Positions 2,578 to 30,247 of a stretch of 33,318 nt of DNA are shown here, piece after piece. How positions within the stretch are numbered: position 1 is the first letter of the stretch; every line of letters begins with the position of its first letter. This stretch comes from Candidatus Sulfotelmatobacter sp. (GTDB taxonomy: Bacteria; Acidobacteriota; Terriglobia; Terriglobales; Acidobacteriaceae): assembly GCA_030040965.1 (NCBI GenBank), contig JASHOT010000194.1:1-33318 (forward strand), read 5' to 3'. Below the pieces are notes generated by a model. That model saw only the letters and a list, made by a program, of their open reading frames with translations. It was not told the origin of the DNA and ran no database searches. The translations under genes and the position numbers were made by a program.

Positions 2578-2918
2578 CTGCTTCATTACCTCCATCATTT
2601 ATTGGCTTTTCCATCGCGAACAGGTTCATTTTCAGACGGCCCGCAATGTCCCACATCCGCTTAGATGGTCATAGGCGCTGCTTCGATGTTTAATGTGCGA
2701 AGTGACGAACAATTCCGTCGGGCGCTAACTCAAAAACGCTAGATAAGATTACGTAGATCGGAACGCTCGCGCGGAGCACGATGCATCATTTGGTGAGCGA
2801 GGAGACCTCTGCGCGAACTCGAGCCGCCCGGCCTCAAATGAGTCAATTACGTTTTCGTGACTGCCGCGTCATGTATGATCCCGATGCAAGCGGCGAAGCC
2901 CAATTGAGGATTCCATCC
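2578..2918. other. Divergent intergenic region
   Basis: These 341 bases separate two divergent genes and must hold both promoters. The GH3 reading frame is open back to 2781, but its first 46 residues do not resemble a signal peptide or the family, so I treat them as untranslated. I see no convincing promoter pair, terminator or RNA structure. Confidence 0.5.
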
Positions 2919-6935: not shown

Positions 6936-7184
6936 AAGTTCCTCGGACGATGCCTTGCTTCCGCTCGGGCATGATTGCCAGCAAAAGATTGCCGACCAGA
7001 ATCTCATGCTTGTCAATCCACCGACGAATTCGGTTATTCCACCTCATCTCCAGGAAATCCCGCGTTGGACCTTTCCCCAGCGGCTAGTTTGGGCTACCCT
7101 AGTGCGAATCTGCGATTGGCGGATGCCGGTACAGGTTTGATCAAAAAGCTACAGTCCACGTTGAACGGTATCGTGCGACCACTC

Positions 7185-9923: not shown

Positions 9924-10041
9924 TGACCGCCACCCGCTAATTGATTTCTATTACAGCGTTTCGACTCGATGCAGGAACTGGCGCATTTGTGTGAGAAGCG
10001 CCTGTGTCTTGGTACAGCCGTTGGCAAATTCGGGGGCGGAA

Positions 10042-13000: not shown

Positions 13001-13821
13001 TCCGCAACGGTTTGAACTTGCTAGCTTCGTACACATACTCGAAGACCATCACTGATGCCGACTCCTCGTTCTCTACCGAGACCGGCTTTAACTCCAGCGT
13101 CTTCGGAGCGCAGAACCCCTACAACCTGCGAGGCGAGAAAGCAGTCAGCTATCAAGACATTCCGCACGCCTTCGTTCTCAGCTATCTCTACGAATTCCCT
13201 GCCGGACCGGGCAAGCGGTTCCTGAGCCACGGCGTGCCCAGCAAGGTGGCCGGCGGATGGCAGGTCAGCGGGGTTCATCGTTACCAGGCCGGATCACCGA
13301 CCGTGATCAATGAATATGCAACGGCAAATCCGTTCAGCGGAGGAAACTACCGGTTGAGCCTGATTCCCGGCGTGCAAGTGCTCAACACAAATGCGGTGCA
13401 TTGGACTCCTTCGAGCAACCCAACATGGAACAGTGGCTGCACGGAGACGAATGGATTATTCAGTCCTGCGACAGGAAATGCCGGAAACGGTCCGGCAAAT
13501 TGCAACGCGTTCCTTGATCCAAGCGCTGCCTCGCTCAGCGCAGGCGGTGGATACGTCTTCGGCAATATCCCGGAAGTCGTTTCCTGGTGGCGAAGTCCCG
13601 GATACAGAAATGAAGACTTTGCTGTACTCAAACGAACTAACATTACGGAGACCAAAGACATCCTATTCAAACTCGATATCCCGAATGCATTCAACCGCCA
13701 CGTTTTCGGTGGTATTGACGGATGGCCGGGGGATCAGTTCTTTGGTGTCCCTGGCGGCAGCGGCCACACCGTTCTTAATGCGCCCAGACAAATACAGGCA
13801 ACCCTTCGCTACGAGTTTTGA
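10042..13821 (+). CDS. Oar-like TonB-dependent outer-membrane receptor
   Basis: This 1259-residue outer-membrane receptor is of the type expanded in Acidobacteria. Residues 1-24 form a Sec signal (MNWNSRRVVAVVAFSLLFVCSSLGQ). A carboxypeptidase-regulatory-like beta-sandwich follows at about 28-110 (GAIAGTVLDSTGAAIAGASITI, then IGRYNVSAEASGFK). A plug domain follows, including GGQNFGSEILLDGASVQ and VTTATPSAQFGHTSGGVESFTTKSGTNKYHGS, and the rest is beta barrel, ending in QIQATLRYEF with the terminal Phe expected for outer-membrane insertion. ATG 10042 is chosen for the signal and the GGGGGCGGA site; GTG 9991 is unlikely. Such receptors import bulky ligands such as oligosaccharides using TonB energy; the ligand is not known. 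It is followed by a strong terminator. Confidence 0.95.
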   Translation: MNWNSRRVVAVVAFSLLFVCSSLGQSDRGAIAGTVLDSTGAAIAGASITITGVDTGSVYKTQSSSSGAYHVNDLAIGRYNVSAEASGFKTSVEKNVEIQINTVASLNITLQPGNVKEEVTVLADAPTVQTDSSDVGTVVEDKQIHDLPLSLNSTGQSFVRSPETFIFLTPGTIGQGTVGDHPAAGVYETKISGGQNFGSEILLDGASVQRMDSGTAFDQTAPSVEALTEFKVTTATPSAQFGHTSGGVESFTTKSGTNKYHGSVFELFRNEALDANSWDNDFANALTLESDEAAGCNPSVPPCTPLTPKPRDRQNDFGGALGGPVWIPHLYNGHDKTFFFFAWEQYRNRRGLSNDLLDLPTAAERTGDFSALLGPDTGIPDPCNPGQDIFVGEIFDPTTTRIGTGGQTCRDAFPGNKITNISPVAQKILAYLPPTNLTGIPNGNGVPGTVQNFLNPATLDHVVTTQTTVRIDENVTQNHKMFFSYSSREQNFLNSNNFDLPPPLTPANYYNYYFTHYLRYGWDYIISPSLLNHVTVGFNRIYTASKAPSVNGSNWESVLGISGASGPTFPQFSFNAGVDGTPYSMWSDNNYTLQIPNALVVADSISWTKGRHSVRFGFDWRSYQYSVEAPGTTSPAYTFSYNETSFTPPAQNPNNNLTGDPFASFLIGQPDIEQLMVTSHYSRWANNYYAVYAQDDFKVRQGLTLNLGLRWDIETPRHEAVGAQSVLSLTAANPLTPGQSGALIYGKSATGATTYFKNFGPRIGFAYAPAVWKNLTVIRGAYSIYYAPLTYSDFGDNLSSGTTASPNFENADHFTPVSSLDAGFPAYTPPSNSQDPTLNTFTTNGIYYVAASYGRPGMVQNWDLEVQHQIATDLIFSIGYIGQHGTRLRSNLAQVNTPNPLYNSLGAELGYQVDGSDGKNGPAILSSLGVSVPSWFTPGWGSGTSNNVIGQLLRPFPQYSTITTNCCLENLGQSTYNALQTALERRFRNGLNLLASYTYSKTITDADSSFSTETGFNSSVFGAQNPYNLRGEKAVSYQDIPHAFVLSYLYEFPAGPGKRFLSHGVPSKVAGGWQVSGVHRYQAGSPTVINEYATANPFSGGNYRLSLIPGVQVLNTNAVHWTPSSNPTWNSGCTETNGLFSPATGNAGNGPANCNAFLDPSAASLSAGGGYVFGNIPEVVSWWRSPGYRNEDFAVLKRTNITETKDILFKLDIPNAFNRHVFGGIDGWPGDQFFGVPGGSGHTVLNAPRQIQATLRYEF

Positions 13822-16287: not shown

Positions 16288-18146
16288 TGTTCCACGATTC
16301 CTTTGCCTTCGACAACTGTGATGATGCGGTCAATGGCAGGGTTCTTGATCTCTTCTCTTGCACCGTCCGGCCAGAAGATTTCGACCTTGTCTACAGTTGT
16401 CGCCGTGCCCAATCCAAAATGCGGACGTGGATCGGAGCTTGAAGCATAGCTACCCCCGCTGAAAACGTCGGCCCGCTGCCGAACTGTACCTGTGGTGACA
16501 AATACCTTCGCGCCGACCGCATCCCGCGGGCTCTTGCCTGCTCCAATCAATTTAAATTTCAACCAATGATTCGAGTTCTTGACCACATTGCGCAGCAACA
16601 CGGGGGTCGAATCCATCACGTTGAGAACGGCGTCGATGTGGCCATCGTTGAACAGATCGCCGAAAGCAGCCCCGCGAGCCGAAACGACCACTGCCAGCCC
16701 ACTTCCAGAAGCTGCAGGAACCTCCTCAAACTTCGCCCCATTCAAGTTACGAAACAGCAATGGCCGTTGCGCCCACGTTGTGCCCCAATCCTGTTGGTCG
16801 ACGCCCGGATAGACGTGACCATTGGCGAAAAAAAGGTCGAGCAACCCGTCGTTGTCGTAGTCCAGGAAGCCCGTACCCCATCCTAGAAACGGAATGGTTG
16901 CGTTCGCGATGCCGGCAGCGTAACTCACGTCGGTGAAGCTGGCATCTCCGTCGTTTCGATACAGCGTATTGTAGTCGTCGGAAAAATTCGTAACGCAGAA
17001 ATCGACCTTGCCGTCGCGGTTATAGTCCCCAACGGCAATTCCCATCGACGCCTGTTCACGTCCTTCATCGTTCAAGGCGAATCCTGAAAGATAGCTGATA
17101 TCTTCGAATGTCCCGTCGTGCTTGTTGCGATACAGATACTTAGGTACAGAATCGTTCGCAACCAGCAAATCAATCCAGCCATCATCGTCCACGTCAACAA
17201 AGACAGAAGCCAGACCGTAATAACCTCTGGGATCGGAAACTCCAGCCTTCACGCTCACATCGGTAAACGTACCATCGCCGTTATTGTGGAACAGATGATC
17301 ACCCTCACCCGGTAAGCCACGAGGGCCGCACATGACCGGCACTCCGCGAAACTGACAAAATCCGGAAGGCAGCCTGCCCTTACCAGCGATTGGGGGATGG
17401 TCTACGTCGTATTTCACATATCCGGGAACAAACAGGTCCAGGAAACCGTCATGGTCGTAGTCGCCCCAGGTCGCACCGGTCGACCAGGTGCCCAGGGCAA
17501 CGCCCGCCGTTTCCGCAACATCGGTAAACGTGCCGTCACGGTTATTGTGGTACAGGCGGTTCTTGCCAAAGTTGGAAACGTAGATGTCGGGCCAGCCGTC
17601 GTTATCGTAGTCTCCTACGGCGACACCGAAGCCCCAGCGCTCATTGGCCACTCCCGCCTTTTCGGTCACATCGGTGAAGGTACCGTCGTGGTTGTTGTGG
17701 AACAACATCGCTCGCGGCGGTGCTTCCTTACCTTGAAGCGCGGGGAAGGTTGAGCCGTTCAGCAGATAAATGTCGAGCCATCCATCGTTGTCGTAATCGA
17801 GAAGGGCGACGCCGGATCCTGGCGTCTCTAAAATTGTAGTTTTCTCCGGCGTGCCCGACCGATGATGGAACTTATCGAGTCCGGCGGCGCGCGTAATATC
17901 GGAGAACACGACTGGCGCGCCGTCGACAAAACCGCCCGCCGTGATGGGGCGCGAAAGGGAGTCCTTGACTGGAGCGTGGGCAGCGCCGGTGCTCATGCCG
18001 CTCTGCTGGCTGTGAGTGTCCGCGGACGGGGCGTTTTGCGCCCAAGCTGCGGGAAGAAACAGCGTGAGACAAATCGTTCCCGACGCTAATATCGGAGCAA
18101 TAAAACGCACGGCAAAATGAGGAGGGACCATGGAGCTCTGAGACAT
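16284..18146 (-). CDS. CRTAC1-type FG-GAP/ASPIC-UnbV secreted protein
   Basis: This secreted beta-propeller-like protein has 620 residues. A signal peptide (FIAPILASGTICLTLFLPAAWAQ) is followed by at least seven FG-GAP/VCBS repeats with calcium-binding loops, such as DYDNDGWLDIY, DYDNDGWPDIY, DYDHDGFLDLF, DVDDDGWIDLL, DYNRDGKVDF, DYDNDGLLDLF and DLFNDGHIDAV. The C-terminus carries the ASPIC/UnbV domain with HFGLG and WPDGAREEI. The fold suggests Ca2+-dependent binding of a protein or glycan at the cell surface; no enzymatic role is established. ATG 18146 is chosen, with 18131 as an alternative. It is divergent from GH127 with only 73 bases between starts and coupled to the TPR gene downstream. 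In Bacteroidota similar proteins occur beside SusC/SusD-type uptake genes. Confidence 0.92.
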   Translation of the reverse strand: MSQSSMVPPHFAVRFIAPILASGTICLTLFLPAAWAQNAPSADTHSQQSGMSTGAAHAPVKDSLSRPITAGGFVDGAPVVFSDITRAAGLDKFHHRSGTPEKTTILETPGSGVALLDYDNDGWLDIYLLNGSTFPALQGKEAPPRAMLFHNNHDGTFTDVTEKAGVANERWGFGVAVGDYDNDGWPDIYVSNFGKNRLYHNNRDGTFTDVAETAGVALGTWSTGATWGDYDHDGFLDLFVPGYVKYDVDHPPIAGKGRLPSGFCQFRGVPVMCGPRGLPGEGDHLFHNNGDGTFTDVSVKAGVSDPRGYYGLASVFVDVDDDGWIDLLVANDSVPKYLYRNKHDGTFEDISYLSGFALNDEGREQASMGIAVGDYNRDGKVDFCVTNFSDDYNTLYRNDGDASFTDVSYAAGIANATIPFLGWGTGFLDYDNDGLLDLFFANGHVYPGVDQQDWGTTWAQRPLLFRNLNGAKFEEVPAASGSGLAVVVSARGAAFGDLFNDGHIDAVLNVMDSTPVLLRNVVKNSNHWLKFKLIGAGKSPRDAVGAKVFVTTGTVRQRADVFSGGSYASSSDPRPHFGLGTATTVDKVEIFWPDGAREEIKNPAIDRIITVVEGKGIVEQ

Positions 18147-18219
18147 GGTTTGCCTGGTCGGCCTGCGAAATCTTCTCACATGGCTGATTCCATCACAAGC
18201 GAATGAAACCTGGATCATA
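18147..18219. promoter_or_regulatory. Short divergent promoter region
   Basis: Only 73 bases separate the starts of the CRTAC1 and GH127 genes, so both promoters must overlap or share control sites here. I cannot pick out confident -35/-10 pairs. The placement suggests the two genes are regulated together. Confidence 0.4.
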
Positions 18220-20082
18220 ATGGCTATAACGATGTTCGCTTCGCCGCAAATCTCGCGCCGTGGATTCATGCGATCGGCTGCGTTCGCAGCTGCGGCGGTC
18301 GCCCTTCCCTACCGCGCATTGTCCCAGAACAGCGTGGTCCAGAAAAACAACGTCCCGTCTGTTTCCCCGCATTTGAAGCAGTTTGACTACGGAGACGTTG
18401 AGTTCGCAAGCGGTCTCCACGACGAGCAACTCGAGCACACTCGTTCCGTTTTGATGGGCTTGAGCGATGACAGCCTGTTGAAGCCATTCCGGCAAATGTC
18501 CGGCCAGCCCGCTCCTGGCGAGGATCTTGGCGGCTGGTATCGCTATGATCCCAACTATAAGACCGGTGGGCCCGATAACGCCGGCTTTGCTCCTACCTGC
18601 ACGTTTGGGCAATGGGTCTCAGCGCTGGCGCGTATGTATGCCATCCGGCGAGATCAGGCGATCCGTGAGAAGGTGCTGCGCTTGAACCGTCTCTACGCGC
18701 AGACCATTTCGGATGCTTATTACGACAAAAACCGATTCCCTACCTACTGCTATGACAAGATCGTTCGCGGTCTTGTTGACTCGCACAAATACGTTGGCGA
18801 TCCCGATGCCTTCTCAATTCTCGAGCAAACCACGAACACAGCCTTGCCGCATTTTCCAAAATGCGCAGTGGAACATGGACAAGCCTGGCGGCCCAACAAG
18901 GACGAAACCTGGACCTGGGACGAGTCTTACACGATTTCAGAGAATCTTTTTATTGCCTATGAGTGCGGCGCGGGAGAGCGCTATCAGCAGTTTGCCTGGC
19001 AATATCTCGACAACGACTACTACGACCCTCTGGCCGAGGGGCGAGATGTGTTGGCCGGCAGACACGCCTACAGCTATGTCAATTCTCTGGGCTCGGCGAT
19101 GCAGGCATATCTGACTCTTGGCAGCGAGAAACATCTGCGCGCCGCTAAGAACGGCTTTGACATGCTTTCAAGGCAAAGCTTTGTCACCGGAGGCTGGGGG
19201 CCGGATGAAATGCTCCGTGCCCCTGACAGTTCAGAACTTTGCGCCAGTCTCAGCAATACCCACGCCAGCTTTGAGACGCCCTGCGGATCCTACGCACATT
19301 TCAAGCTGACCCGTAAGCTGCTCCGAGTCACGCGTGATGCGCGATATGGCGACAGTATGGAGCGAGTGATGTACAACACAGTGCTCGGCGCAAAACCGCT
19401 CATGCCCGACGGACGAACCTATTATTACTCCGACTACAGCTTTCAAGGACGGAAGGTGTACAGACCGGATCAGCATTGGGCGTGCTGCTCGGGTACTTTG
19501 CCGCAAGTAGCGGCCGACTATCGCATCAACACTTATTTTCACGACCCGCAAGGTGTCTGGGTGAATCTTTACATCCCATCCACGTTGCGATGGAAACAGG
19601 ATGGCGGCGATGTCGCTCTCACGCAGGAAAGCCAATACCCGTTTGATAGCCTGATCCATTTCCGCGTCGAAACATCGCGCGCCCGGCGGTTTGCCTTGAA
19701 CTTCCGGATTCCCGCATGGACCAGGGGGGCTTCGCTTTCAGTAAACGGCCGTCGCCTACCCGAGGACTTAATCGCGGGAACCTTTGCGACCGTTCAAAGA
19801 GAATGGAGGACCGGGGATCGCATTGCATTGGATCTGCCGATGGCAACGCGGCTGGAAGCGGTCGACCCGCGCCATCCGCAGACTGTTGCGCTTCTCTTTG
19901 GTCCTGTCGTGTTGTTCGCCATCACGGATAGGCAGCCATCGTTACGTCGCGCGGACTTGCTGGCTGCCCAAAGAACAGGCCTGCGTAGCTGGCAAGTACG
20001 AACCTCCGGCGTCCCGCTAATGCTGCTGCCGTTCACGGACATTGAGGACGAGCAGTATTCCACTTACCTCACTATCGCATGA
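18220..20082 (+). CDS. GH127-type (DUF1680) glycosidase, Tat-exported
   Basis: This is a family 127 glycoside hydrolase (beta-L-arabinofuranosidase clan), 620 residues. The N-terminus has a Tat signal: ISRRGFMRSAAFAAAAVALPY. An alpha/alpha barrel follows. The metal site that anchors the nucleophilic Cys in characterised members is visible as Glu352 and Cys355 in SFETPCGS and the pair Cys422-Cys423 in HWACCSGT. Characterised enzymes have Glu-x-Cys; here the spacing is Glu-x-x-Cys. The C-terminal part is a beta-sandwich (FRIPAWTRGASLSVNGR). ATG 18220 is chosen, with ATG 18232 as an alternative; neither has a strong ribosome site. The 3' end overlaps the GMC gene by 11 bases, convergent. The substrate is probably an arabinose-containing glycan or a related furanoside, but DUF1680 is broad. 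Confidence 0.85.
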   Translation: MAITMFASPQISRRGFMRSAAFAAAAVALPYRALSQNSVVQKNNVPSVSPHLKQFDYGDVEFASGLHDEQLEHTRSVLMGLSDDSLLKPFRQMSGQPAPGEDLGGWYRYDPNYKTGGPDNAGFAPTCTFGQWVSALARMYAIRRDQAIREKVLRLNRLYAQTISDAYYDKNRFPTYCYDKIVRGLVDSHKYVGDPDAFSILEQTTNTALPHFPKCAVEHGQAWRPNKDETWTWDESYTISENLFIAYECGAGERYQQFAWQYLDNDYYDPLAEGRDVLAGRHAYSYVNSLGSAMQAYLTLGSEKHLRAAKNGFDMLSRQSFVTGGWGPDEMLRAPDSSELCASLSNTHASFETPCGSYAHFKLTRKLLRVTRDARYGDSMERVMYNTVLGAKPLMPDGRTYYYSDYSFQGRKVYRPDQHWACCSGTLPQVAADYRINTYFHDPQGVWVNLYIPSTLRWKQDGGDVALTQESQYPFDSLIHFRVETSRARRFALNFRIPAWTRGASLSVNGRRLPEDLIAGTFATVQREWRTGDRIALDLPMATRLEAVDPRHPQTVALLFGPVVLFAITDRQPSLRRADLLAAQRTGLRSWQVRTSGVPLMLLPFTDIEDEQYSTYLTIA

Positions 20083-21766
20083 TTCCGCCTGTCCCGGTTT
20101 TGTGTTCGCCGTGTCGCAGGTTCTCGATCAGATACTCCGTCGTGCGAAGCGAGAAGGCCAGAATGCTGATCGTCGTTGTTTTATCGGTGCAATTCAGAAA
20201 CACGCTGGCGTCGCACACGTACAGATTTGGCACGTCATGCGTCTGACCAAAACGATTCGTCACGAACTTCTTCGGATCATTGCCCATGCGGCATGTGCCC
20301 GTCTCGTGGAGGCTCCATCCGGGAATTTCCGGATGTTCGCTGGCGCCTTCCCAAACTCCGCCCGCTGCCCGCAATGCCTCTGCGCACACTTCTTTTGAGT
20401 GTTCCCACATCTTGAGCACATTATCGTCCCACTCGAAGTGAATCCGAGCTACCGAAATTCCGTATGGATCTTTGACGTCAGGGTCGAGTTCCACGAAATT
20501 CCTGGATGAGGGAAGGGTCGGAGCCTGAATCCCAAAACTCACGGGAGTGGGATACCGCCGTTTGATCTCGCGCTTGAACGATGAACCGAACCCATCCAGA
20601 TCGCGGGCAAACCAGGGAAATTCTTCGCATCCGCCATCGGGGTAAACCGAATAGCCCCGGATAAATTTCTCCTCGTGGGGATTGTTCAGGTTTTGCCAGC
20701 GCGGCATCCAGGCGATGGTGGAATCCGCTACGTGATCGGGAAAGCTGGGCTGGCCGAGCAGTTGCGGCAAATATCCTCGAGCGGATTCTCCATATAGATG
20801 ATCGCAGAGATTCTTTCCAAGCTGCCCGCTGGAGTTGGCGATCCCGTTGGGCCAGTAGCGCGATTTTGAATTCAGCATGATGCGAGCCGATTCGATGCAA
20901 GAGGCCGCGACCACAACGGCACTTCCGTAGACTTCGACTTCCTGCCTGGTTTTGCGGTCGATATACGCTACTCCGGCCGCCTGTCCTTTCTCGTCGACCA
21001 GAATGTTTTTCGCCAACGCATCGGTGCGTAGCTCCAGATTATTGGTCGCCTCGGCTTTTGGCAGCAGAAAATACGGCGTGGAAAAAAACGCTCCCACATC
21101 GCAGCCAGTGGTACACTCGCCGCAAAAATGGCACGCCGGATGTCCTTCGTACGGTTGGGTGAGCTGGGCGCAGCGGTCCGGCAGATACGGAATGCCAACT
21201 TTTTCGCACCCGGCCTGCAAGATGTAATCCAGACAGCGAAAATTGAAGGGAGGAAGATAGACACCGTCGGGATTGCTGGGCCGGTTCTGCACCGTGCTGG
21301 CCACGCCGATCATCTTCTCGACTCGTGTATAAAACGGACTGATCTCGTCGTATGTGATCGGCCAATCCACATCGTAGCCATCGAGCGAGGCTGCTCGGAA
21401 ATCGATGTCGCCGAAACGCGCTGAACTGCGTCCCCAGAAATTGGTTTTGCCCCCTACGGCATTGCAACGGGGCCACATCCACATCGACCCAGGCGCGACG
21501 GTAAATGGAATCTCGTGATCCCATGCGGCCTTTGTGTATTCGTTATCCATATAGCCGAAGGATTCGGAGCGCCGTTTGGGATCGTCGAGGCCACGAAACT
21601 TCATGTCCCACGGCATGCGGTGATAACGAAAATCCTTTTCCGGATCGAGCCTGCGCCCGGCGTTGAGCGCACAAACCTTGAGTCCGGCGTCGCATAGGAT
21701 CTTGATCGTCATGCCGCCGCTGGCGCCAGTTCCAATCACAATAACGTCGTAGATTTTCTTGCCCAT
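20072..21766 (-). CDS. GMC-family FAD sugar dehydrogenase, catalytic subunit
   Basis: This is a glucose-methanol-choline oxidoreductase, 564 residues. The FAD-binding Rossmann motif is VIGTGASGG at residues 10-18. The NAVGGKTNFWG segment (about 103-113) matches the FAD-contact loop. The C-terminal active-site His487 is in LHETGTCRMG, followed by NLYVCDASVF and CTDKTTTIS. Cysteines 212, 215, 218 and 222 form a tight cluster (CHFCGECTTGC); C-x5-C-x3-C is the spacing described for the 3Fe-4S ligands of bacterial FAD-dependent glucose dehydrogenase. It has no signal of its own and probably rides out with its Tat-bearing small subunit, encoded 19 bases upstream. The likely reaction is oxidation of a sugar hydroxyl to a keto group in the periplasm. 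The electron acceptor, normally a cytochrome c subunit, is not in the window. Confidence 0.9.
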   Translation of the reverse strand: MGKKIYDVIVIGTGASGGMTIKILCDAGLKVCALNAGRRLDPEKDFRYHRMPWDMKFRGLDDPKRRSESFGYMDNEYTKAAWDHEIPFTVAPGSMWMWPRCNAVGGKTNFWGRSSARFGDIDFRAASLDGYDVDWPITYDEISPFYTRVEKMIGVASTVQNRPSNPDGVYLPPFNFRCLDYILQAGCEKVGIPYLPDRCAQLTQPYEGHPACHFCGECTTGCDVGAFFSTPYFLLPKAEATNNLELRTDALAKNILVDEKGQAAGVAYIDRKTRQEVEVYGSAVVVAASCIESARIMLNSKSRYWPNGIANSSGQLGKNLCDHLYGESARGYLPQLLGQPSFPDHVADSTIAWMPRWQNLNNPHEEKFIRGYSVYPDGGCEEFPWFARDLDGFGSSFKREIKRRYPTPVSFGIQAPTLPSSRNFVELDPDVKDPYGISVARIHFEWDDNVLKMWEHSKEVCAEALRAAGGVWEGASEHPEIPGWSLHETGTCRMGNDPKKFVTNRFGQTHDVPNLYVCDASVFLNCTDKTTTISILAFSLRTTEYLIENLRHGEHKTGTGGIMR

Positions 21767-21785
21767 AGTTTCAGTCAGCTGCTCT

Positions 21786-22394
21786 TTACGCAGGGTGTGA
21801 AAGATGCAGGTGCCCGGGATCGCCTTTGTGTGGGCACTCCGGTGATTCGGAATAAAATTTCAGGGCTGGGTTATCCAGTTCTTTGTATCCGATTTCGCTG
21901 GTGTAGAAGCCAGTGACCGTGTACTCACGAATCAGACGAAAGAATTCTCGCCCGCCTTCCTCGGGGGGTCGGGCCCTGTCTTTGAATGCGAGTGGTTCGA
22001 GCAGAGAATTCTGCCGCTCATGGCTGATCTCCAGAAATTTCTTGCCGTAGTTGCTCTCGCAGTGCGCGTTGAGCCATGCCAATCCGGTGCGAAACCGATA
22101 CTGTACTTCGGGGTCGCTGGCCACCATGAAATCGATGAACTCGGCAACGCCAGCTTCCTTCGCGCCCGGAGTTGCGTCGGTGGGAATAATGAGTTCGGTC
22201 AGACAATCGACCATCGCATATTCGCCCGGCGTGAAAAATTGCGGATCATATTGGACCGGCCTGATCGGCAACGCCGCGTTTCCGATGTGGCCGCACGCAA
22301 AGGCCCATTTGCTGAAGCCGGGAAAGTGCCCTGCCGCCGCGGCCGCCCCGAGAATCCGCAAAACCTCCCGCCGTCGCACGCCTTGTCCTGCCAT
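21786..22394 (-). CDS. Gluconate 2-dehydrogenase subunit 3 family protein, Tat
   Basis: This small subunit of a membrane or periplasmic flavoprotein dehydrogenase has 202 residues. The N-terminus is a Tat signal: VRRREVLRILGAAAAAGHFPG. The body shows the family core: FTPGEYAMVDCLTELIIPTDATPGAKEAGVAEFIDFM, then RTGLAWLNAHC. In characterised relatives (gluconate, fructose and glucose dehydrogenases) this subunit carries the catalytic GMC subunit through the Tat pathway and stabilises it. ATG 22394 is chosen because GGGAGAG lies 4 bases upstream; 22421 is the longer alternative. It forms an operon with the GMC gene and diverges from the DUF1080 gene. Confidence 0.9.
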   Translation of the reverse strand: MAGQGVRRREVLRILGAAAAAGHFPGFSKWAFACGHIGNAALPIRPVQYDPQFFTPGEYAMVDCLTELIIPTDATPGAKEAGVAEFIDFMVASDPEVQYRFRTGLAWLNAHCESNYGKKFLEISHERQNSLLEPLAFKDRARPPEEGGREFFRLIREYTVTGFYTSEIGYKELDNPALKFYSESPECPHKGDPGHLHLSHPA

Positions 22395-22440
22395 AAATCT
22401 CTCCCGTTCGGAATCCCGCAATACGGTCGCGGCAGTTCAC

Positions 22441-22456
22441 ATGAATGATAATTCAT
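22441..22456. promoter_or_regulatory. Palindromic site in divergent promoter region
   Basis: ATGAAT-gata-ATTCAT is a perfect 6-bp inverted repeat with a 4-base centre, 47 bases before the small-subunit start and within the 240-base gap separating it from the DUF1080 gene. The position suits an operator for both operons, but a site of this size can arise by chance. Confidence 0.3.
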
Positions 22457-22577
22457 CGCGGCGGACCGAGCTCCGTGAACGAACCATGTTTGGGTCTGAC
22501 GAAATCGCGGGAATTGATAAGCACCTGGGACAGGCGGAAAAATCTTTGACAGACTGTGAGCGGCGTTTGCCTGAATC

Positions 22578-22606
22578 TTGCGCGGCGTGCCACCGCCTTC
22601 TACAAT
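22578..22606 (+). promoter_or_regulatory. Candidate promoter of DUF1080 gene
   Basis: TTGCGC (22578-22583) and TACAAT (22601-22606) are separated by exactly 17 bases. The -10 box matches five of six consensus bases. The predicted start would leave a leader of about 22 bases before ATG 22635. A perfect TTGACA also occurs at 22546-22551 but lacks a good -10 partner. Confidence 0.4.
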
Positions 22607-22634
22607 TCCCTTGCATGAAATTCGTGGTGTTCCC

Positions 22635-23618
22635 ATGAAACGTGCTATTCCGTTTTTTCTTTTGTCTCTCGCCTTCCTGCTCTCAATTGCAGCTGAAAAG
22701 CCTCTTGCGGTGCTTGCACATCCTCAATCGGCGGCAAGCACCTCGACTCCTGCCGCTTTTCTCGGCCGCTGGGACTTGACCCTGAAGGCACCCGATCGCC
22801 AGTATCCCTCCTGGCTTGAACTCACCCTGGAAAACGACGAACTGAAGGCACGCATGACGGGTCGCTGGGGTAATGCCCGTGCGCTCCCCAAGGTCACGCT
22901 CGTCGAGGGAAAACTGACATTCGTTTCGCCTAAGGAAGAAGAGGCTCGATCCGATGACATGGTGTTTCAAGGCACGCTGAGCGGCGGCAGGCTCGCGGGA
23001 ACAACCACCGGACCTGACGGGGCGATCTGGCAATGGACCGGCCAGCGCGCGCCGTCACTCGACCGGAAGCGTGAGCCCAGGTGGGGACGGCCGGTAACGC
23101 TCTTCAACGGCAAAGATCTTTCCGGCTGGCACATGGACAGTGCCAAGGGAACGCCGCCATGGACGGTGGAAAACGGAACTCTCGTGAGCCCGGGCCACGG
23201 ACCGGAACTCATCAACGACACGAAATTTGAGGATTTCAAATTGCACGTGGAGTTCAATTGCGGTGCCGACGCCAACAGTGGCGTCTACCTGCGCGGCCGC
23301 TACGAAGTGCAGATCGAAGACGACTCGATTCAGGAGCCCCCCAGCCACCATATGGGAGGAATCTACGGTTTCCTCGCCCCATCTCCGGAGTTGCCGCGCA
23401 AACCGGGCGAGTGGCAGACCTACGACATCACGCTCGTGGGAAGAACCGTCACCGTCGTTCAGAATGGCACGACCATCATTGACCATAAGGAAATTCCCGG
23501 ACTCACCGGCGGCGCGCTTGATAGCCATGAGGAGTTGCCTGGCCCTATCTACTTGCAGGGAAGCGAAAAGGGACATGTCGCTTTTCGCCAGATCGTGATT
23601 ACTCCCGCGGTCGAATAG
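22635..23618 (+). CDS. DUF1080 / 3-keto-disaccharide hydrolase-type protein
   Basis: This secreted protein has 327 residues: a Sec signal (MKRAIPFFLLSLAFLLSIA), a small beta-barrel-like domain at about 45-135 (GRWDLTL, LELTLENDELKARMTGRWG, FQGTLSGGRLAGT) and a C-terminal DUF1080 jelly roll at about 150-325. The latter shows LFNGKDLSGWH, WTVENGTLVSPG, FKLHVEFNC, NSGVYLRGRYEVQIEDD, GIYG, WQTYDITLVG and the closing GPIYLQGSEKGHVAFRQI. DUF1080 is now called the 3-keto-disaccharide hydrolase family because members cleave 3-keto-glycosides. ATG 22635 is chosen for the signal. It is transcribed toward the Gfo/Idh/MocA gene, 61 bases on, and diverges from the GMC operon. Confidence 0.9.
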   Translation: MKRAIPFFLLSLAFLLSIAAEKPLAVLAHPQSAASTSTPAAFLGRWDLTLKAPDRQYPSWLELTLENDELKARMTGRWGNARALPKVTLVEGKLTFVSPKEEEARSDDMVFQGTLSGGRLAGTTTGPDGAIWQWTGQRAPSLDRKREPRWGRPVTLFNGKDLSGWHMDSAKGTPPWTVENGTLVSPGHGPELINDTKFEDFKLHVEFNCGADANSGVYLRGRYEVQIEDDSIQEPPSHHMGGIYGFLAPSPELPRKPGEWQTYDITLVGRTVTVVQNGTTIIDHKEIPGLTGGALDSHEELPGPIYLQGSEKGHVAFRQIVITPAVE

Positions 23619-23679
23619 ATCTGCTGATCTCATGTGGGCTCGCGAATGACAACCTCGCAATTCCAGAACAGGAGAATCG

Positions 23680-25047
23680 ATGAAACGAAGTGATCTTTCG
23701 CGCCGTAAATTCTTGCGACTGGGTGCCGCTTCCGCGGCAGCGTTATCTGCGAAGCGCATCTCGAGCCAAAGCATTCCGCTCGGGCCGGAAAAGTTTTGGG
23801 CTTCCGCCCGGCCAGTTCCGGCCAGCGATCGCGTGCGTTTCGGCATGATCGGTGTGGGCATGCAGGGTTCGCAGCTGCTGACGCAATCGATCGAGTTGCC
23901 CGGCATTGAATGCGTGGCCGCTGCAGACTTGTACGACGGGCGGCATCAGCTGGCTCGCGAGATAACGGCGAAGAACGGCCTTCCGGTTACACGCCACTAT
24001 CATGAACTTCTTGAAAACAAAGAGATCGACTGCATCGTAGCCGCGGTGCCGGACCACTGGCACAAACAGGTCGTAGTGGACGCGGTGAACGCCGGCAAAG
24101 ACATCTACTGCGAGAAACCCATGTCGCACAGTCCGGCCGATGGCATCGCCATGGTCGAGGCGACCAAAAAAACCGGCCGCATCGTGCAGATCGGCTCGCA
24201 GCGCGTCAGTTCGCTGATCTGCAAAAAGGCCAAAGACATGATTGCCGACGGAGGGGTCGGCCAGGTCATGTTGGTGGAAGGATGGCTCGGGCGTAACGAT
24301 CCCACGGGCGCGTGGGAGTATCCGCCGCCTCCCGATCTTTCACCGCAGACCCTCGATTGGGATACCTGGCAAGGGACAGTGCCGAAGCGCGATTTTGATC
24401 CCTTCATTTTTGCGCGCTGGCGTTGTTGGAAGGAATACGGCACCGGTCTGGCGGGAGATCTGCTGGTGCATCTGGTGAGCGGAATGATGTTCATGCTCGG
24501 CATCAATGAGCCGCCGAACATGGCGGCATCGGTCGGCGGCATTCTACGCTGGAAAGATGGGCGCAACATGCCCGACGTACACGGCACGGTTTTCTACTAT
24601 GGCGATTTGCCCGTCTACATGCGCTTGAATCTCAACGCGGAGATGGCCGAGACCTACCGCATCCAGGGACCGAAAGGAATTCTCGAGGTGGGAGAATTTG
24701 GACTGAGCTACACACCCCAGACGGGAAAGGATTCAGGTCCAAGCTACTACTCGGCCGGCTTTCCGCGCGCGATGCGTGGCGCCTACGAGAAGAAGTGGCA
24801 TGAAGAGAACGATCCCGAGCTGGGGCAAGAGCCCATGCCCGAAACCCTATCGTTCAAAGGCCCCGACTACGACGACATGCATCCCCACCTGTGGAACTTT
24901 TTCCAGTCGGTTCGCTCGCGAAATCCGGTAGTGGAAGACGCGATCTTCGGTCACCACGCTGCCCTGGCTTGCCACATGGCGAACGAATCATATTTCCGAA
25001 GAAGGGCGGTGGTTTGGGACGAGTCATCACAAACTATCAAAGGCTAA
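23680..25047 (+). CDS. Gfo/Idh/MocA oxidoreductase, Tat-exported
   Basis: This NAD(P)-dependent sugar oxidoreductase has 455 residues. A Tat signal opens it (LSRRKFLRLGAASAAALSA). The Rossmann motif is FGMIGVGMQGS, the family's EKP motif is in IYCEKPMSHS, and the second-domain active-site region reads YGTGLAGDLLVHLVSG, with the His expected for catalysis. The C-terminal beta-sheet domain is complete (YRIQGPKGILEVGEFGLS). Export through Tat implies folding with a tightly bound cofactor, as in glucose-fructose oxidoreductase. AGGAGA lies 5 bases before ATG 23680. It sits in the same direction as the DUF1080 gene and probably in one operon with it; the role fits interconversion of sugars and keto-sugars in the periplasm. 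Confidence 0.93.
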   Translation: MKRSDLSRRKFLRLGAASAAALSAKRISSQSIPLGPEKFWASARPVPASDRVRFGMIGVGMQGSQLLTQSIELPGIECVAAADLYDGRHQLAREITAKNGLPVTRHYHELLENKEIDCIVAAVPDHWHKQVVVDAVNAGKDIYCEKPMSHSPADGIAMVEATKKTGRIVQIGSQRVSSLICKKAKDMIADGGVGQVMLVEGWLGRNDPTGAWEYPPPPDLSPQTLDWDTWQGTVPKRDFDPFIFARWRCWKEYGTGLAGDLLVHLVSGMMFMLGINEPPNMAASVGGILRWKDGRNMPDVHGTVFYYGDLPVYMRLNLNAEMAETYRIQGPKGILEVGEFGLSYTPQTGKDSGPSYYSAGFPRAMRGAYEKKWHEENDPELGQEPMPETLSFKGPDYDDMHPHLWNFFQSVRSRNPVVEDAIFGHHAALACHMANESYFRRRAVVWDESSQTIKG

Positions 25048-25191: not shown

Positions 25192-26925
25192 TTGGAAATC
25201 CAAGCTAGTGTGTGCACTGACGATTCAACTGTTGGCAAAGAAAACGCCCAACATCTCCAATCAGATTTCAAGCAACATCCCGCACGGCATCCCAAGGGGA
25301 TACAGGCCCGCATCCTGCTGACTTCAGTCTTCGGCCCCTACGCGCAAGACGACGAATTTGGCAGCCGCTTCATCAATCCTATGGAGCTGTACCACAATCA
25401 AGTCACACGCGCCCAGGGCGGCTTTTCGCTCCGCATGTTTCATCGCTCCTGGGGCATCATGCTGATCCAGGCGAACATCTCCGCCCCGTGCACTGTTCTG
25501 GACTTCCCCACGCGCCGCGCCTTCGCGCGTGAACTCACTCGGCACCACTATGATGTCGTGGGCATCTCCTCGATTATCGTGAACGTCGGCAAGGTGCGGG
25601 AGATGTGCCGCTTGATTCGCGAGCTCTCGCCGCACTCGACGATCGTCATAGGAGGCCACGTCGCCGCGATTCCGGGCATCGAGTCGATGATCGACGCCGA
25701 TCACATCGTGCGCGGCGAAGGCGTGGCATGGATGCGGCGCTATCTCGGAGAAAACGAAACCGCGCCTATCCGCCATCCCGCGATCGTCTCCGGATTGGGC
25801 ACGCGCATCATGGGTGTCCGTTTGCCCGAGCGTAAAGGCGCGACCGCTGCAACCATCATCCCTTCGGTCGGCTGCCCCATGGGATGCAACTTCTGCACGA
25901 CCTCTGCCTTCTTCGGCGGCAAAGGCCGATTCGTCAACTTTTTTGAGACCGGCGACGAACTGTTTGAAGTCATGAGCCGGATGGAAGACGAACTCAAAGT
26001 GCACTCCTTCTTCGTGATGGATGAAAACTTTCTGCTGCATCGCACCCGGGCCATGAGTCTGCTGGAGCGCATGAAAGAAGCCGGCAAAAGCTGGACGATG
26101 TCAGTTTTCGCCTCCGCCAACGCGATCCGTCAATACACCATGCAGGAACTAGTCGATTTGGGAGTCTCCTGGCTATGGATCGGTCTCGAGTCTCCGCAGG
26201 GCGCGTACAACAAGCTGCAAGGCACAGATACGCGGCAACTGACGCGGGAATTGCGCGAGCACGGAATTCGCGTGCAAGGGTCCACCATCATTGGTCTGGA
26301 GCACCACACTCCCGACAACATCGTTGCCGAGATCGAACACGCGGTTGCGCACGACACCGACTTTCATCAGTTCATGCTCTACACGCCGGTTCCGGGCACG
26401 CCTCTCTACCAGCAAATGTCCGAGGAAAGCCGGATGCTTCCTGACGTGGATTACGCCGATGTTCATGGCCAGTTCAAATTCAATTTCAGGCACAGAGCTA
26501 TTTCGCGCGACGACTCCCAACGCTATCTCGATTGGGCGTTCTGGCGCGATTTCGAAGTGAACGGCCCCAGTTTGTACCGCCTTGCCCGGACCTTGCTGTC
26601 AGGCTGGAAACGCTACAAGCACTGGCCGGACGCCCGCGTGCGCGAACGTTTTGCCAGCGAGATACACCGTCTCGCCGGCGTCTACAGCTCAGCACTCTGG
26701 GCCATGGAGCGTCATTTCAAAAAAGTGGATCGCGATCTCAGCGATAAAATTCGTGCTTTGCGCCACGAATTCAAGCGGGAGTCCGGAGTCGCGGCCCGCG
26801 TGCTCCCGGCGCTTCTTGGTCCGTTGCTGTTGTGGACGACACGCCGCGAAGAGAGAAATCTCGCGAGCGGAAAAACTTACGAGCCGCCCACGATTCTTGA
26901 ACGCACGAACTGGTCAGGTGCTTGA
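25192..26925 (+). CDS. B12-binding-domain radical SAM protein
   Basis: This 577-residue enzyme has two parts. The N-terminal 30-190 region has a Rossmann-like cobalamin-binding fold (YDVVGISSIIVNVGKVREM, TIVIGGHVAAIPGIESMI, HIVRGEGVAW) without the DxHxxG motif, as is usual in this class. The radical SAM core follows, with the 4Fe-4S motif C228-x3-C232-x2-C235 (GCPMGCNFCTTSAFFGGKGR), then FVMDENFLLHR, IGLESPQG and YTPVPGTPLYQQM. The C-terminal 130 residues are helical and end with a short hydrophobic patch. It belongs to the large class that methylates or rearranges unactivated carbons; the substrate is unknown. No ATG is available: TTG 25192 is the first start, GTG 25210 an alternative. The gene stands alone between two operons. 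Confidence 0.85.
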   Translation: MEIQASVCTDDSTVGKENAQHLQSDFKQHPARHPKGIQARILLTSVFGPYAQDDEFGSRFINPMELYHNQVTRAQGGFSLRMFHRSWGIMLIQANISAPCTVLDFPTRRAFARELTRHHYDVVGISSIIVNVGKVREMCRLIRELSPHSTIVIGGHVAAIPGIESMIDADHIVRGEGVAWMRRYLGENETAPIRHPAIVSGLGTRIMGVRLPERKGATAATIIPSVGCPMGCNFCTTSAFFGGKGRFVNFFETGDELFEVMSRMEDELKVHSFFVMDENFLLHRTRAMSLLERMKEAGKSWTMSVFASANAIRQYTMQELVDLGVSWLWIGLESPQGAYNKLQGTDTRQLTRELREHGIRVQGSTIIGLEHHTPDNIVAEIEHAVAHDTDFHQFMLYTPVPGTPLYQQMSEESRMLPDVDYADVHGQFKFNFRHRAISRDDSQRYLDWAFWRDFEVNGPSLYRLARTLLSGWKRYKHWPDARVRERFASEIHRLAGVYSSALWAMERHFKKVDRDLSDKIRALRHEFKRESGVAARVLPALLGPLLLWTTRREERNLASGKTYEPPTILERTNWSGA

Positions 26926-27085: not shown

Positions 27086-27538
27086 TCAATGATTCCGGTC
27101 GAACCGTGAAGATGCACCATGCTTCCGCGAAGGCAGGCACGGGACACATGCCAGCCCGACGGGCTCAACGGATAGAGGTTTAAGATCGATTCGTCGGGGT
27201 AGTGGCTGTTGAATTTCTTTCAGCTCGACTGCTTTATTTGCAATGTGTTCGGCGCTGACCTCGAATTCCTTGATCAACTCCCAGGGAGCGCCAGATTCGC
27301 CAAAGCGGTCGCGCACGCCAATGGAGCCAGTGATCACCGGTATACCATAAAGGTCGCGTGCCGAGGTAATCATACCGCTGACTCGCCACGCCAAAGCGCC
27401 CGTCTGGTGCTCTTCGGCGGTGATGATTATTCCAGTCTCCTTCGCGGCTCGGATCACCGCATTTTCATCGATAGGTTTAAGAGCATGCATGTTGATAATG
27501 CGAGTTTCCCATCCCAACTCCTGGTGCAGTATGAAACA
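27086..27538 (-). pseudogene. Transketolase C-terminal remnant
   Basis: About 100 residues match the C-terminal domain of transketolase-family proteins: LGWETRIINMHALKPIDE, then TGIIITAEEHQTGALAWRVSG, then GVRDRFGESGAPWELIKEFEVSAEHIANKAVEL. The first roughly 200 residues of a C-terminal half-subunit, and the whole thiamine-binding part, are missing. In-frame translation stops at 27539-27541, and upstream DNA belongs to the TonB receptor gene. After the domain ends, about 35 residues without family resemblance follow, so the original stop is probably lost too. No ribosome site precedes any start codon. It reads as a fragment left after recombination. A free-standing domain of this size is not known to be functional. 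Confidence 0.8.
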
Positions 27539-27556
27539 TTAGGATTGAAGGAAGTA

Positions 27557-30247
27557 ATGCATAGAGTAGGGACGATCCTTTTACTGCTCCTTATCGCGCC
27601 TGGCCTACACGCCGCGCAAGAGAATGCTGTTAGCGGTCGAATTCTCGACTTGCGGGATCACCTGCCCGCAACAAGTGAAAAATCTCATTTACTTCAGCTG
27701 TCCGGAACCGTCGCTGACACGTCTGGCGCGGTGATTGCCGGCGCCACCGCGCAGGTTCGGAGCGCGGACGACACAATCCAAAGAACGGCGCGGACGGATA
27801 AGGACGGTTCCTTCATTATTCTCGGGCTCCCGGCCGGTGATTATCGGCTTGTCGTGTCGAATCCTGGCTTTGAAACCAAGGAAATCCCCGTCACCATCGC
27901 TACAGGGGCTGCGGTCCCCCTGCGCATCGTTCTGGCTGTGGCTGAAGTGAGCACCACCATTGAGGTGAAGGAGCGTTCGGATGATCTTGTCGGAATTGCC
28001 AGCTCGGCGGGCCAGGTGACGGTCGGTTCTGAGGAACTCGAAAATCGGCCGCTACTTCGCTCGGGAGAGATTTTGGAGGCGCTGCCCGGCCTCATCATTA
28101 CGCAACACGCCGGCGGCGGCAAGGCCAACCAGTATTTTATGCGGGGCTTCAATCTCGATCATGGCACGGACTTCGCCATTTTCCTCGACGGCATGCCGCT
28201 CAACTTGCCGTCGCACGCGCACGGCGAGGGGTACTCGGACATGAACACCGTGATACCGGAGTTTGTGCAGCGAATCGACGCCGCGAAAGGCCCTTATTAC
28301 GCCGACGTAGGTGACTATGGCTCGGCGGGAAACGCCCACGTGGTGTTTTACAAGACGCTGCCCCGGAACTTCTTCCAGATCGACGGCGGAGAGGATCGGT
28401 TTGCGCGGTTCGTTTTCGGCATATCGCAAAAGCTCGGCGACGGCAACCTGCTGTACGGGGGAGAGGCGTATCACGATGCCGGCCCCTGGGTGCATTCGGA
28501 CAATTATTACAAATTCAACGCACTCGTCACCTACAGCGAGGGCGACAAGGCCAACGGTTTCACCATCACGAACCGCGACTACGATGGAGCCCGATGGAAC
28601 TCAAGTGACCAACTCCCTTATACGGCTATACCCGTCGTCGGTTTCTTCGGGGCATTGAACCCCGCCGACGGTGGGCGATCGCAGCGTTACAGCTTGCAAG
28701 GCGAATGGCACCACGAGGGGGCAAATTCCCAAACGCAACTCATGGGCTACGGGTTCTACTACGATCTCAACCTGTTCTCCGATTTCACCTGCTATCTGGT
28801 CGACCCCTATAAAGGCGACCAGTTCGAACAGCAGGACCGCCGCTGGGTCGCTGGGTTCGACCTACGTCATACGATCTACGGCAGATTCCAGGGCCGCAGG
28901 AGGGAAACCACGTTCGGCATGCAGCTCCGCAATGATTGGATCCACAACGGCCTTTTCCGGACCGAAGATGGCGTGCGCACGGATAAAACTTACTACACAG
29001 CGAACTATCTAGATGTACCCTCTTCGCTTGATCAAATCGCCGTTCTGCCCGCGGCCACGGATTTGAATAAATTTACGGAGACAATAACCAGTCCCTGGGT
29101 AACAAATAAAATTCAGTGGGGAGAGAGGGTCCGCTCTATTCTTTCCTTTCGTGGCGATGTCGGTGACGGCGTTCTTACGAGCTTTACCAATCCCACGAAC
29201 CCCAACTATCCCAACGATCCCTACCCTGCCAACTTTAATCCCAACACCAACAAATCGATCTCCAAGTTTCTGCCCAGCCCGAAAGCGAGTTTGATCTTCG
29301 GCCCCTGGGCCAATACGGAGCTCTACTTGCAGGGCGGATTCAGTTACCACACCAACGACGTGCGTGGCTCAACGCAGCTGTATGAACCGGTTTCACCGGA
29401 CTATCCTTACTACAACACGCCGAACCCTATCAAGATTCCATTCCTGGTCGAAACTAAAGGCGGGGAGGTTGGCGTGCGCACTGCGGCCGTCCCACAACTG
29501 CAAAGCACGGTCGAGCTCTGGTACCTTCACAGTAATTCCGAACTGTTGCAGGATGGCGACACCGGAGGCACGACTCCCTCACTGGAGTCAAGCAATCGCT
29601 ACGGCATCGAGGTTGGGAACTACTACACGCCAACACAACATTGGGCTTTTGATGCCGACTTCGCGGACTCACGCGCGATTTTCACCCAACAAGACCCATT
29701 CGATTCGACCTTTTACTACACGACTCCAACGGGTACCCAGCAGCTTTGCGCAAGAAACTCGAATTGCTTTGGACTTATTCCGACTGGGGGCGGCACTTAC
29801 CTGCAAAATGCGTACGGCAAGGAGGTGCCCGAAGCGGTTCGGTGGGTGGTTGCAGCCGGCGCTACCTTACGGGACTACAAACGCTTTTCGGCGAGTTTGC
29901 GCCTGCGCTACTTTGGCCCACGCCCTTTGACTTCGGACGCAATCTACACCTCACCCTCAACCGCGTTGGTCAACATGCAGGCGAGCTACAAGTTCAACCA
30001 GAACTGGAGCTTGGTGGGTGAAGTTCTAAATTTGCTCAACCGCCGGGATCACGACGTTGACTACGCCTACGTGTCGCAAATCACGCCGGCGATAGGGCTG
30101 GGGCTACCCGCAACTCCACCAACAACACTGGCCGGGCAGGAGCAAGTCGCGAGTGTTGTGAATGCCAGCGCGGCGTTCACCAGAGTGATGCACCCAGTCG
30201 AGCCGATCGAGGCGCGATTCAGTCTACGTTACAGTTTCGGTCGGTGA
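27557..30247 (+). CDS. TonB-dependent receptor with carboxypeptidase-regulatory domain
   Basis: This 896-residue outer-membrane receptor has a signal peptide (MHRVGTILLLLLIAPGLHAAQ). A carboxypeptidase-regulatory-like domain follows at about 50-135 (LSGTVADTSGAVIAGATAQV, then LPAGDYRLVVSNPGFE), then a plug with LEALPGLIITQHAGGGKANQYFMRGFNLDHGTDFAIFLDGMPLN split over two strands, then GPYYADVGDYGSAG and a barrel ending in RFSLRYSFGR. The plug segment LPSHAHGEGYSDMNTVIPE is typical of a receptor subfamily of unknown ligand also found in Proteobacteria. It differs from the first receptor in size and plug and is not a copy of it. ATG 27557 is chosen for the signal and an AGGAAG site; the frame is open to 27209 across the transketolase remnant. 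Its promoter must lie in or near that remnant. Confidence 0.93.
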   Translation: MHRVGTILLLLLIAPGLHAAQENAVSGRILDLRDHLPATSEKSHLLQLSGTVADTSGAVIAGATAQVRSADDTIQRTARTDKDGSFIILGLPAGDYRLVVSNPGFETKEIPVTIATGAAVPLRIVLAVAEVSTTIEVKERSDDLVGIASSAGQVTVGSEELENRPLLRSGEILEALPGLIITQHAGGGKANQYFMRGFNLDHGTDFAIFLDGMPLNLPSHAHGEGYSDMNTVIPEFVQRIDAAKGPYYADVGDYGSAGNAHVVFYKTLPRNFFQIDGGEDRFARFVFGISQKLGDGNLLYGGEAYHDAGPWVHSDNYYKFNALVTYSEGDKANGFTITNRDYDGARWNSSDQLPYTAIPVVGFFGALNPADGGRSQRYSLQGEWHHEGANSQTQLMGYGFYYDLNLFSDFTCYLVDPYKGDQFEQQDRRWVAGFDLRHTIYGRFQGRRRETTFGMQLRNDWIHNGLFRTEDGVRTDKTYYTANYLDVPSSLDQIAVLPAATDLNKFTETITSPWVTNKIQWGERVRSILSFRGDVGDGVLTSFTNPTNPNYPNDPYPANFNPNTNKSISKFLPSPKASLIFGPWANTELYLQGGFSYHTNDVRGSTQLYEPVSPDYPYYNTPNPIKIPFLVETKGGEVGVRTAAVPQLQSTVELWYLHSNSELLQDGDTGGTTPSLESSNRYGIEVGNYYTPTQHWAFDADFADSRAIFTQQDPFDSTFYYTTPTGTQQLCARNSNCFGLIPTGGGTYLQNAYGKEVPEAVRWVVAAGATLRDYKRFSASLRLRYFGPRPLTSDAIYTSPSTALVNMQASYKFNQNWSLVGEVLNLLNRRDHDVDYAYVSQITPAIGLGLPATPPTTLAGQEQVASVVNASAAFTRVMHPVEPIEARFSLRYSFGR

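Follow-up and report, generated by a model that had tools for sequence, protein, structure and literature searches.

A putative module for 3-keto-glycoside cleavage outside the cytoplasm, within an acidobacterial glycan-use island

Four divergent genes and their products

The contig JASHOT010000194.1 of Candidatus Sulfotelmatobacter sp. (Acidobacteriota; assembly GCA_030040965.1), of which positions 1 to 33,318 were analysed (hereafter the window), carries a group of four genes that may serve the cleavage of 3-keto-glycosides outside the cytoplasm. A LacA/GlycDH-like GMC oxidoreductase (open frame 20072–21766, minus strand; 564 amino acids) and a Gluconate_2-dh3 small subunit (subunit 3; open frame 21786–22421, minus strand) are encoded divergently from a two-domain DUF1080, or 3keto-disac_hyd, protein (open frame 22578–23618, plus strand) and a Gfo/Idh/MocA oxidoreductase, here Gfo (23680–25047, plus strand; 455 amino acids). 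In a Pfam profile search all four proteins scored above their respective cut-offs, with 61.8 (PF00732) and 74.8 bits (PF05199) for the GMC protein, 114.2 bits (PF13618) for the small subunit, 72.1 bits (PF01408) for Gfo and 148.9 bits against a cut-off of 26.8 (PF06439) for the DUF1080 protein, whose family membership is supported by score as well as fold. The open frames and these scores confirm the arrangement given in a preliminary description of this DNA. The small subunit likely starts at the internal ATG at 22394, its orthologues starting with MAGQ, and the DUF1080 protein at the internal ATG at 22635 (MKRAIPFFLLSLAFLL), which gives 327 amino acids. The divergent intergenic region between the likely starts comprises 240 bp (22395–22634) and holds one weak sigma-70-like site at 22514–22543 (plus strand), a consensus match only, found in a scan with a shuffle mean of 0.2.

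Export signals were judged by motif scan and by eye, and those named in the preliminary description were borne out. The small subunit carries the twin-arginine translocation (Tat) motif RRREVL (22359–22376, minus strand), which reads QRREIL in the orthologue of G055 and GRREVL in that of G019. Likewise, the scan and an alignment locate the Tat motif SRRKFL in Gfo (23698–23715, plus strand), and the N-terminus of the DUF1080 protein is hydrophobic and, by eye, of Sec type. No export signal of its own was seen by motif or eye in the GMC protein, which is probably exported by riding with its Tat-bearing partner. Every enzyme of the locus would thereby apparently be situated outside the cytoplasm.

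The DUF1080 protein matched, with Foldseek E-values of 4e-10 to 4e-9, structures titled hydratase or eliminase/hydratase; among the first 20 matches are 8v31, 8tda, 8rr2 and 9fbe, titled 3-keto-2-hydroxy-glucal hydratase or 3-keto-glycoside eliminase/hydratase, as well as 3osd (BT2157). The preliminary description had proteins of this family hydrolyse 3-keto-glycosides, a wording that does not agree with the titles of characterised members in the PDB; because the matching structures bear eliminase/hydratase titles, cleavage would more likely proceed by elimination and hydration than by direct hydrolysis. In the catalytic domain (23091–23615, plus strand), Glu224, Tyr244, Trp260, Asn277 and Gln308 are invariant in an alignment of 14 proteins and Gln226 nearly so. 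It is preceded by an extra N-terminal eight-stranded beta-barrel of about 95 residues (22761–23048, plus strand), modelled by AlphaFold with a predicted local distance difference test score (pLDDT) of 90–97 over residues 41–140 and without a Pfam match. The barrel is common to relatives from Acidobacteriota and Bacteroidota, and an alignment of 50 sequences shows no change at Gly44, Trp46 or Trp60, which brings to notice an unnamed domain on many DUF1080 proteins.

For Gfo the best NCBIfam model is that of the BT_2158 glycoside 3-dehydrogenase (NF058561; 113.3 bits), which was also the best model for the Gfo proteins of G005 (113 bits) and of G055, L177 and L241 (114–125 bits), five having been scanned in all. 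The nearest PDB sequences are 8tdf and 8tdh (87 bits for 8tdf), and the Foldseek matches include 1h6d and 1ofg. In an alignment of the window protein with 16 of the 26 Gfo proteins found, Ser7, Arg8, Arg9 and Phe11 of the Tat motif are invariant (17 of 17), as are Glu145-Lys146-Pro147 (24112–24120, plus strand), presumably the active-site motif, and Asp260 and His264 (24457–24471, plus strand), which we take to be the catalytic pair of the family. A plain glucose-fructose oxidoreductase was rejected, the PDB sequences of that type reaching 39–46 bits against 87 for 8tdf. So was GH109, no entry of which was recognised among the best 60 of 69 PDB rows, the family membership of these entries being our own assumption. 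The preliminary description regarded an exported Gfo as unusual; PMC11300592, however, already presents BT2158 as a periplasmic glycoside 3-dehydrogenase on which growth on trehalose, leucrose and palatinose depends. The arrangement of such an exported Gfo, judged by motif only, next to a DUF1080 gene is found in the window as well.

In the GMC protein, Cys212, Cys218 and Cys222 (21101–21133, minus strand; Cys215 lies between) are invariant in 12 of 12 GMC proteins, and the stretch aligns to that of 6a2u; we take the three residues to be the probable [3Fe-4S] ligands. In a midpoint-rooted tree with long branches flagged, and with LacA itself not included, the protein grouped (99/99) with the nine other DUF1080-linked GMC proteins sampled, apart from the gluconate 2-dehydrogenase, 2-keto-gluconate dehydrogenase and fructose dehydrogenase types. 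Membership of this group and a PF13618 small subunit with a Tat motif are both features of the LacABC type, where the family labels of LacA and LacC are used as we assume them to apply and lacB is presumably the cytochrome c gene. The nearest PDB sequences are flavin adenine dinucleotide (FAD)-dependent glucose and fructose dehydrogenases, among 15 matches in which no LacA entry was seen; the partner subunit is nevertheless of PF13618, as opposed to the sorbitol dehydrogenase family partner of the Pantoea fructose dehydrogenase type. By the tree and the PF13618 partner, an identity as gluconate 2-, 2-keto-gluconate, fructose or glucose (C1) dehydrogenase is unlikely. As a minor observation on this family, LR134133.1 (6,249 bases), labelled as a Klebsiella aerogenes plasmid, has a GMC gene that its annotation splits into three and may be a mislabelled contig.

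A recurrent DUF1080–Gfo core and related clusters

Proximity was counted in 61 genomes, namely the source genome (93.6% complete, 5.87 Mb; two PF06439 and two PF13618 matches) and 60 relatives, with the window itself included and with expectations from random placement, which takes no account of contig breaks or of the tendency of sugar genes to cluster. DUF1080 and Gfo genes lie at most 5 kb apart in 14 of the 61 genomes, against 0.2 expected; GMC, taken from the best 80 of 110 places and with one subunit-3 fragment counted, lies within 10 kb of Gfo in five (0.54 expected). The loci named here for their DUF1080 alignment are the best 80 of 589 confirmed; many of the contigs are short, and the counts are lower bounds. 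The DUF1080 protein matched at 51% or more in 42 of the 80, and 26 of these 42 have a Gfo above 40%, always on the same strand and in 22 cases within 400 bp. In the fetched stretches of the 38 more distant loci, mostly of Bacteroidota, a Gfo above 40% occurred in none and a GMC gene in four. The comparison shows that the core conserved in the clade pairs a two-domain DUF1080 protein, apparently exported, with a BT_2158-like Gfo that bears a Tat motif, the two genes being as a rule neighbours on one strand. This would place in Acidobacteriota, as a recurrent exported pair, the 3-keto-glycoside route that is known from Proteobacteria and from gut Bacteroides. No report of the gene set in Acidobacteria was seen among the matches listed from the open-licence literature (40 of 84 in one case), in which DUF1080 together with Acidobacteria led to a Planctomycetes paper only; a Granulicella glucose-fructose oxidoreductase gene, gfo4, is described in PMC7074687 as upregulated at high sugar.

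In G005, G018 and G055 genes for a ROK kinase and an MFS transporter lie next to the core, as expected for a hexose product; the best models for the G005 pair, below cut-off, are a glucose/galactose transporter and a glucokinase. The SIS gene of relatives resembles GlmS and NagB-II, far below cut-off, and was considered as an amino-sugar sign; to this gene the source genome gave matches of 23–25% only. Besides DUF1080 and Gfo, a single 15-kb contig of G005 carries genes for LacI, SIS, a receptor, ROK kinase and MFS, for a TIM-barrel protein and a second Gfo that both have Tat motifs, and, where the contig starts, a subunit-3 fragment. This cluster (L122:1–13558) has the appearance of a complete route to a hexose that is imported and phosphorylated. 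On L241 (1–4831) the order is DUF1080, Gfo and a frameshifted TIM-barrel gene; next come two frames read by eye, one for a further TIM-barrel protein of Tat-like kind and one that is NagB-like. A second recurrent DUF1080–Gfo pair, with a Gfo at about 62% to that of the window, was observed at L144:8263–16803. Its neighbours there are another Gfo and three proteins of beta-lactamase-like, molybdopterin-binding and TIM-barrel type; a GMC/subunit-3 pair lies close in L136 and L137.

The type and logic of such a pathway are already published, and the locus is an unusual mix of two known versions, with a GMC link that is sporadic in the clade. In Price 2022 (PMC9007349), LacABC-type GMC dehydrogenases are drawn beside DUF1080, and the lactose system of Caulobacter and other bacteria shares with the window a GMC protein, a Tat small subunit and an exported DUF1080 protein, all clustered. 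The published cluster also contains lacB, two epimerases, a sugar reductase and a transporter, whereas the window has no cytochrome c gene nearby and its Gfo is exported and of another subfamily. The Bacteroides BT2157/BT2158 system similarly encodes a DUF1080 protein together with an exported Gfo glycoside 3-dehydrogenase; the window differs in a Gfo far under the equivalog cut-off, in the extra N-terminal domain and in the adjoining GMC pair. The Agrobacterium GlycDH-OGE-HYD-Gfo operon (PMC10628242) likewise combines a GlycDH with a Tat-signal partner, the logic of oxidation, cleavage, hydration and reduction, and a Gfo member, but there cleavage is by a TIM-barrel eliminase rather than DUF1080 and the Gfo is reported as a reductase.

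All four families are also held together in one cluster on plasmids of six genera, represented by Pseudoalteromonas sp. CF6-2, Paracoccus liaowanqingii, Sphingomonas parapaucimobilis, Hymenobacter volaticus, Palleronia sp. and Xanthomonas sacchari. Unlike the window, these clusters contain several sugar isomerase/TIM-barrel genes and a transporter, three of them also have an annotated cytochrome c, and their Gfo lacks a signal, the best model being levoglucosan dehydrogenase (103–196 bits). Of 20 plasmid records with DUF1080 that were listed (24 in total), at least 10 have a GMC gene within 10 kb by coordinates. Because of these plasmid clusters and the LacABC/DUF1080 systems of Price 2022, the grouping belongs to a known and widespread kind. 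Among the listed records with a GMC gene in reach, that of Gemmatirosa (L164, unannotated) has GMC, subunit 3 and, at 51%, a DUF1080 protein with the extra domain; its Gfo match shows no visible signal, and the frame may be broken. Three other DUF1080 regions, two of Parabacteroides and one of Bradyrhizobium, have no annotated GMC within 7 kb, and in one of the Parabacteroides regions two Gfo with Tat-like N-termini lie beside the DUF1080-type protein.

Candidate oxidants and alternative readings

The reading that we favour, and to which we give about an even chance, is that the locus is an extracytoplasmic 3-keto-glycoside cleavage module within an acidobacterial glycan-use island, in which two exported C3 oxidants feed one DUF1080 protein. 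Gfo with trapped nicotinamide adenine dinucleotide (NAD(H)) would oxidize the C3 hydroxyl of a glycoside, the DUF1080 protein would cleave the 3-keto-glycoside via elimination and hydration, and Gfo–NADH would hand the hydride back to the freed 3-keto-sugar to give the normal sugar, no free cofactor being needed in the loop. The GMC/subunit-3 pair would act as a second C3 oxidant that produces the same intermediate irreversibly, its electrons passing via the FeS cluster to a cytochrome or quinone. Since cytoplasmic NADH is out of reach of an exported enzyme, an exported NAD enzyme would have to catalyse the two half-reactions itself or depend for regeneration on a further exported substrate, and it is for this reason that Gfo is preferred as a hydride shuttle and GMC as a respiratory oxidant. 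The locus would then be a natural case in which FAD/respiratory and NAD/hydride-shuttle oxidants meet, here in the glycan-use island of a soil acidobacterium, and would make it possible to ask which of the two supplies DUF1080 when the periplasm has no free NAD.

Several observations weigh against this reading. Gfo is not a BT_2158 equivalog, because it reached only 113.3 bits of the 750-bit cut-off of NF058561; 8tdf and 8tdh are absent among its 50 best Foldseek rows, the top rows being other Gfo enzymes, and its AlphaFold model, which bears on cofactor trapping, is weak (pLDDT 72.9, with the N-terminal arm, residues 1–44, below 50). PDB sequence matches to the DUF1080 protein are confined to profile positions 140–323, outside the extra domain, and deletions of BT2157 and BT2158 gave no defect on raffinose-family sugars, according to PMC11501099. 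The GMC group of the tree also holds GMC proteins with no known DUF1080 link (L166, L170, L173 and paralogues). No CxxCH motif was found in the called window genes, where a LacABC-type cluster would have its cytochrome c subunit, and a LacB-like Hymenobacter cytochrome query, made with no positive control, had no match in the source genome, although 29 matches to a cytochrome c family lie on other contigs. MFS, ROK and SIS genes were likewise absent among the window genes scanned with Pfam. Finally, with the GMC places taken as the best 80 of 110, GMC and DUF1080 genes lie within 5 kb in two of 61 genomes, the window and G055 (0.19 expected), and in only one of 60 relatives once the window is excluded; GMC or one subunit-3 fragment lies within 15 kb of DUF1080 in four of 61 (0.57 expected), and a GMC gene is present in the fetched stretch of two of the 42 close loci, L210 being a weak broken match.

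The scarcity of this link favours the foremost alternative, possible though unlikely, in which the GMC/subunit-3 pair is independent of the DUF1080–Gfo core, shares the island with it but acts on different substrates, and normally accompanies a Tat TIM-barrel isomerase. GMC orthologues of at least 60% occur in 20 of the 61 genomes, the source genome included, and close small-subunit orthologues adjoin GMC in relatives. In nine relatives subunit 3 and then GMC come after c6, a gene for a PF01261 TIM-barrel protein with a Tat motif, although one contig ends before GMC and the PF01261 annotation was made on one c6, and no DUF1080 lies within the stretch fetched from these nine. In the source genome c6 had no match (no positive control), and none of nine PF01261 matches falls on the contig of the window, a difference from the GlycDH/OGE operon. 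In a tree of GMC orthologues, the bootstrap of which had not settled and few forks of which are well supported, the window protein groups with that of G016, a genome with no DUF1080 on its 9.7-kb contig, and not with G055 or L177 (supports 84/78 and 86/100, modest overall); the linkage may for this reason have arisen at least twice or been subject to repeated loss.

Against independence, the two modules meet again, divergently, in G055 and L177 (Terriglobia SRVP_33), both with Gfo before DUF1080, and partial sets occur in a few more. In G028, which the proximity matches had missed, subunit 3 and GMC are encoded divergently from a DUF1080-family protein of 222 residues. The subunit-3 fragment of G005 shares a contig with DUF1080 and Gfo, G025 shows matching halves on two contigs, DUF1080, LacI, SIS and Gfo making up one half and GMC, subunit 3, the TIM-barrel gene and the second Gfo the other, and in L241 DUF1080 and Gfo are joined to a c6-like TIM-barrel gene. 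The four families also cluster in other phyla, as noted above. By comparison, the GMC/subunit-3 pair is a separate cassette or loose partner that adjoins the core here and in a few relatives. The proposal of the preliminary description that the four genes form one route is upheld insofar as the GMC protein groups with DUF1080-linked GMCs and the families co-cluster on plasmids of six genera, in G055 and in L177, but they are not a fixed unit of the lineage. A tie of GMC to a terminal oxidase in relatives, an idea drawn from gene sizes, was dropped, as the downstream N-termini point to other proteins, which by eye we take to resemble a chromate transporter, a DNA glycosylase, a B12 mutase subunit and CoA enzymes.

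The linear order of the preliminary description, in which GMC oxidizes C3, DUF1080 cleaves and Gfo reduces the 3-keto-sugar outside the cytoplasm, is improbable here. PMC10628242 describes such an order for Agrobacterium with GlycDH, OGE, hydratase and a Gfo in the reductase role, and PMC7676230 does so for levoglucosan. The Gfo of the six plasmid clusters is, however, without a signal and nearest levoglucosan dehydrogenase, whereas that of the window is exported and nearest glycoside 3-dehydrogenases, so that product reduction is doubtful; moreover, if Gfo is exported and its NADH trapped, re-reduction would call for a second substrate, leaving a one-way route unbalanced. An extension of the favoured two-oxidant reading, which we hold to be no more probable than the linear order, is that GMC primes the hydride loop: it would make the first 3-keto-glycoside with electrons passed to the respiratory chain, after which Gfo would swap hydride between the 3-keto-sugar and the next glycoside while DUF1080 releases the 3-keto-sugar. 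If true, one priming event would drive many cleavages with no export of NAD(H), and GMC would set the keto-sugar pool and replace leakage. Very improbable is action of the DUF1080 protein on unoxidised polysaccharide, as with the endo-xanthanase THTE_1561 named in PMC9007349, or mere glycan binding through the extra barrel: the presence of that domain, the GH3, GH30 and GH127 context and the 38 of 80 loci in which a more distant DUF1080 lacks a Gfo above 40% in the fetched stretch speak for it, but the close DUF1080 group is often paired with a dehydrogenase gene and the core residues are conserved.

The surrounding glycan-use island

By Pfam, the four genes lie within a larger glycan-use island with GH3 (2781–5417), GH30 (5430–7016) and an OMP_b-brl_4 outer-membrane receptor (9991–13821, plus strand); Pfam and gene calls further give a histidine kinase (6975–9284) and an FG-GAP/ASPIC protein, and TPR-like frames were recognised by eye. 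In G019 a 75% relative of the receptor shares a locus (L129) with the DUF1080 orthologue, which lies on one stretch with relatives of GH30, the receptor, the TPR-like frames and the ASPIC protein; DUF1080 consequently travels with the glycan island in that genome as well. Downstream of Gfo, a B12-binding radical SAM protein (25192–26925) lies before a TonB receptor (27209–30247); it had no partner in the neighbourhood clustering of relatives, its sole match (29%) being in L207. The convergent neighbour of the GMC gene is a GH127-type glycosidase (18145–20082, plus strand; PF07944 and PF20736), which is a possible supplier of glycosides to the module. Its apparent Tat motif, SRRGFM, lies about 37 residues into the protein, and relatives of 60–72% were observed on the DUF1080 loci L182, L187 and L197.

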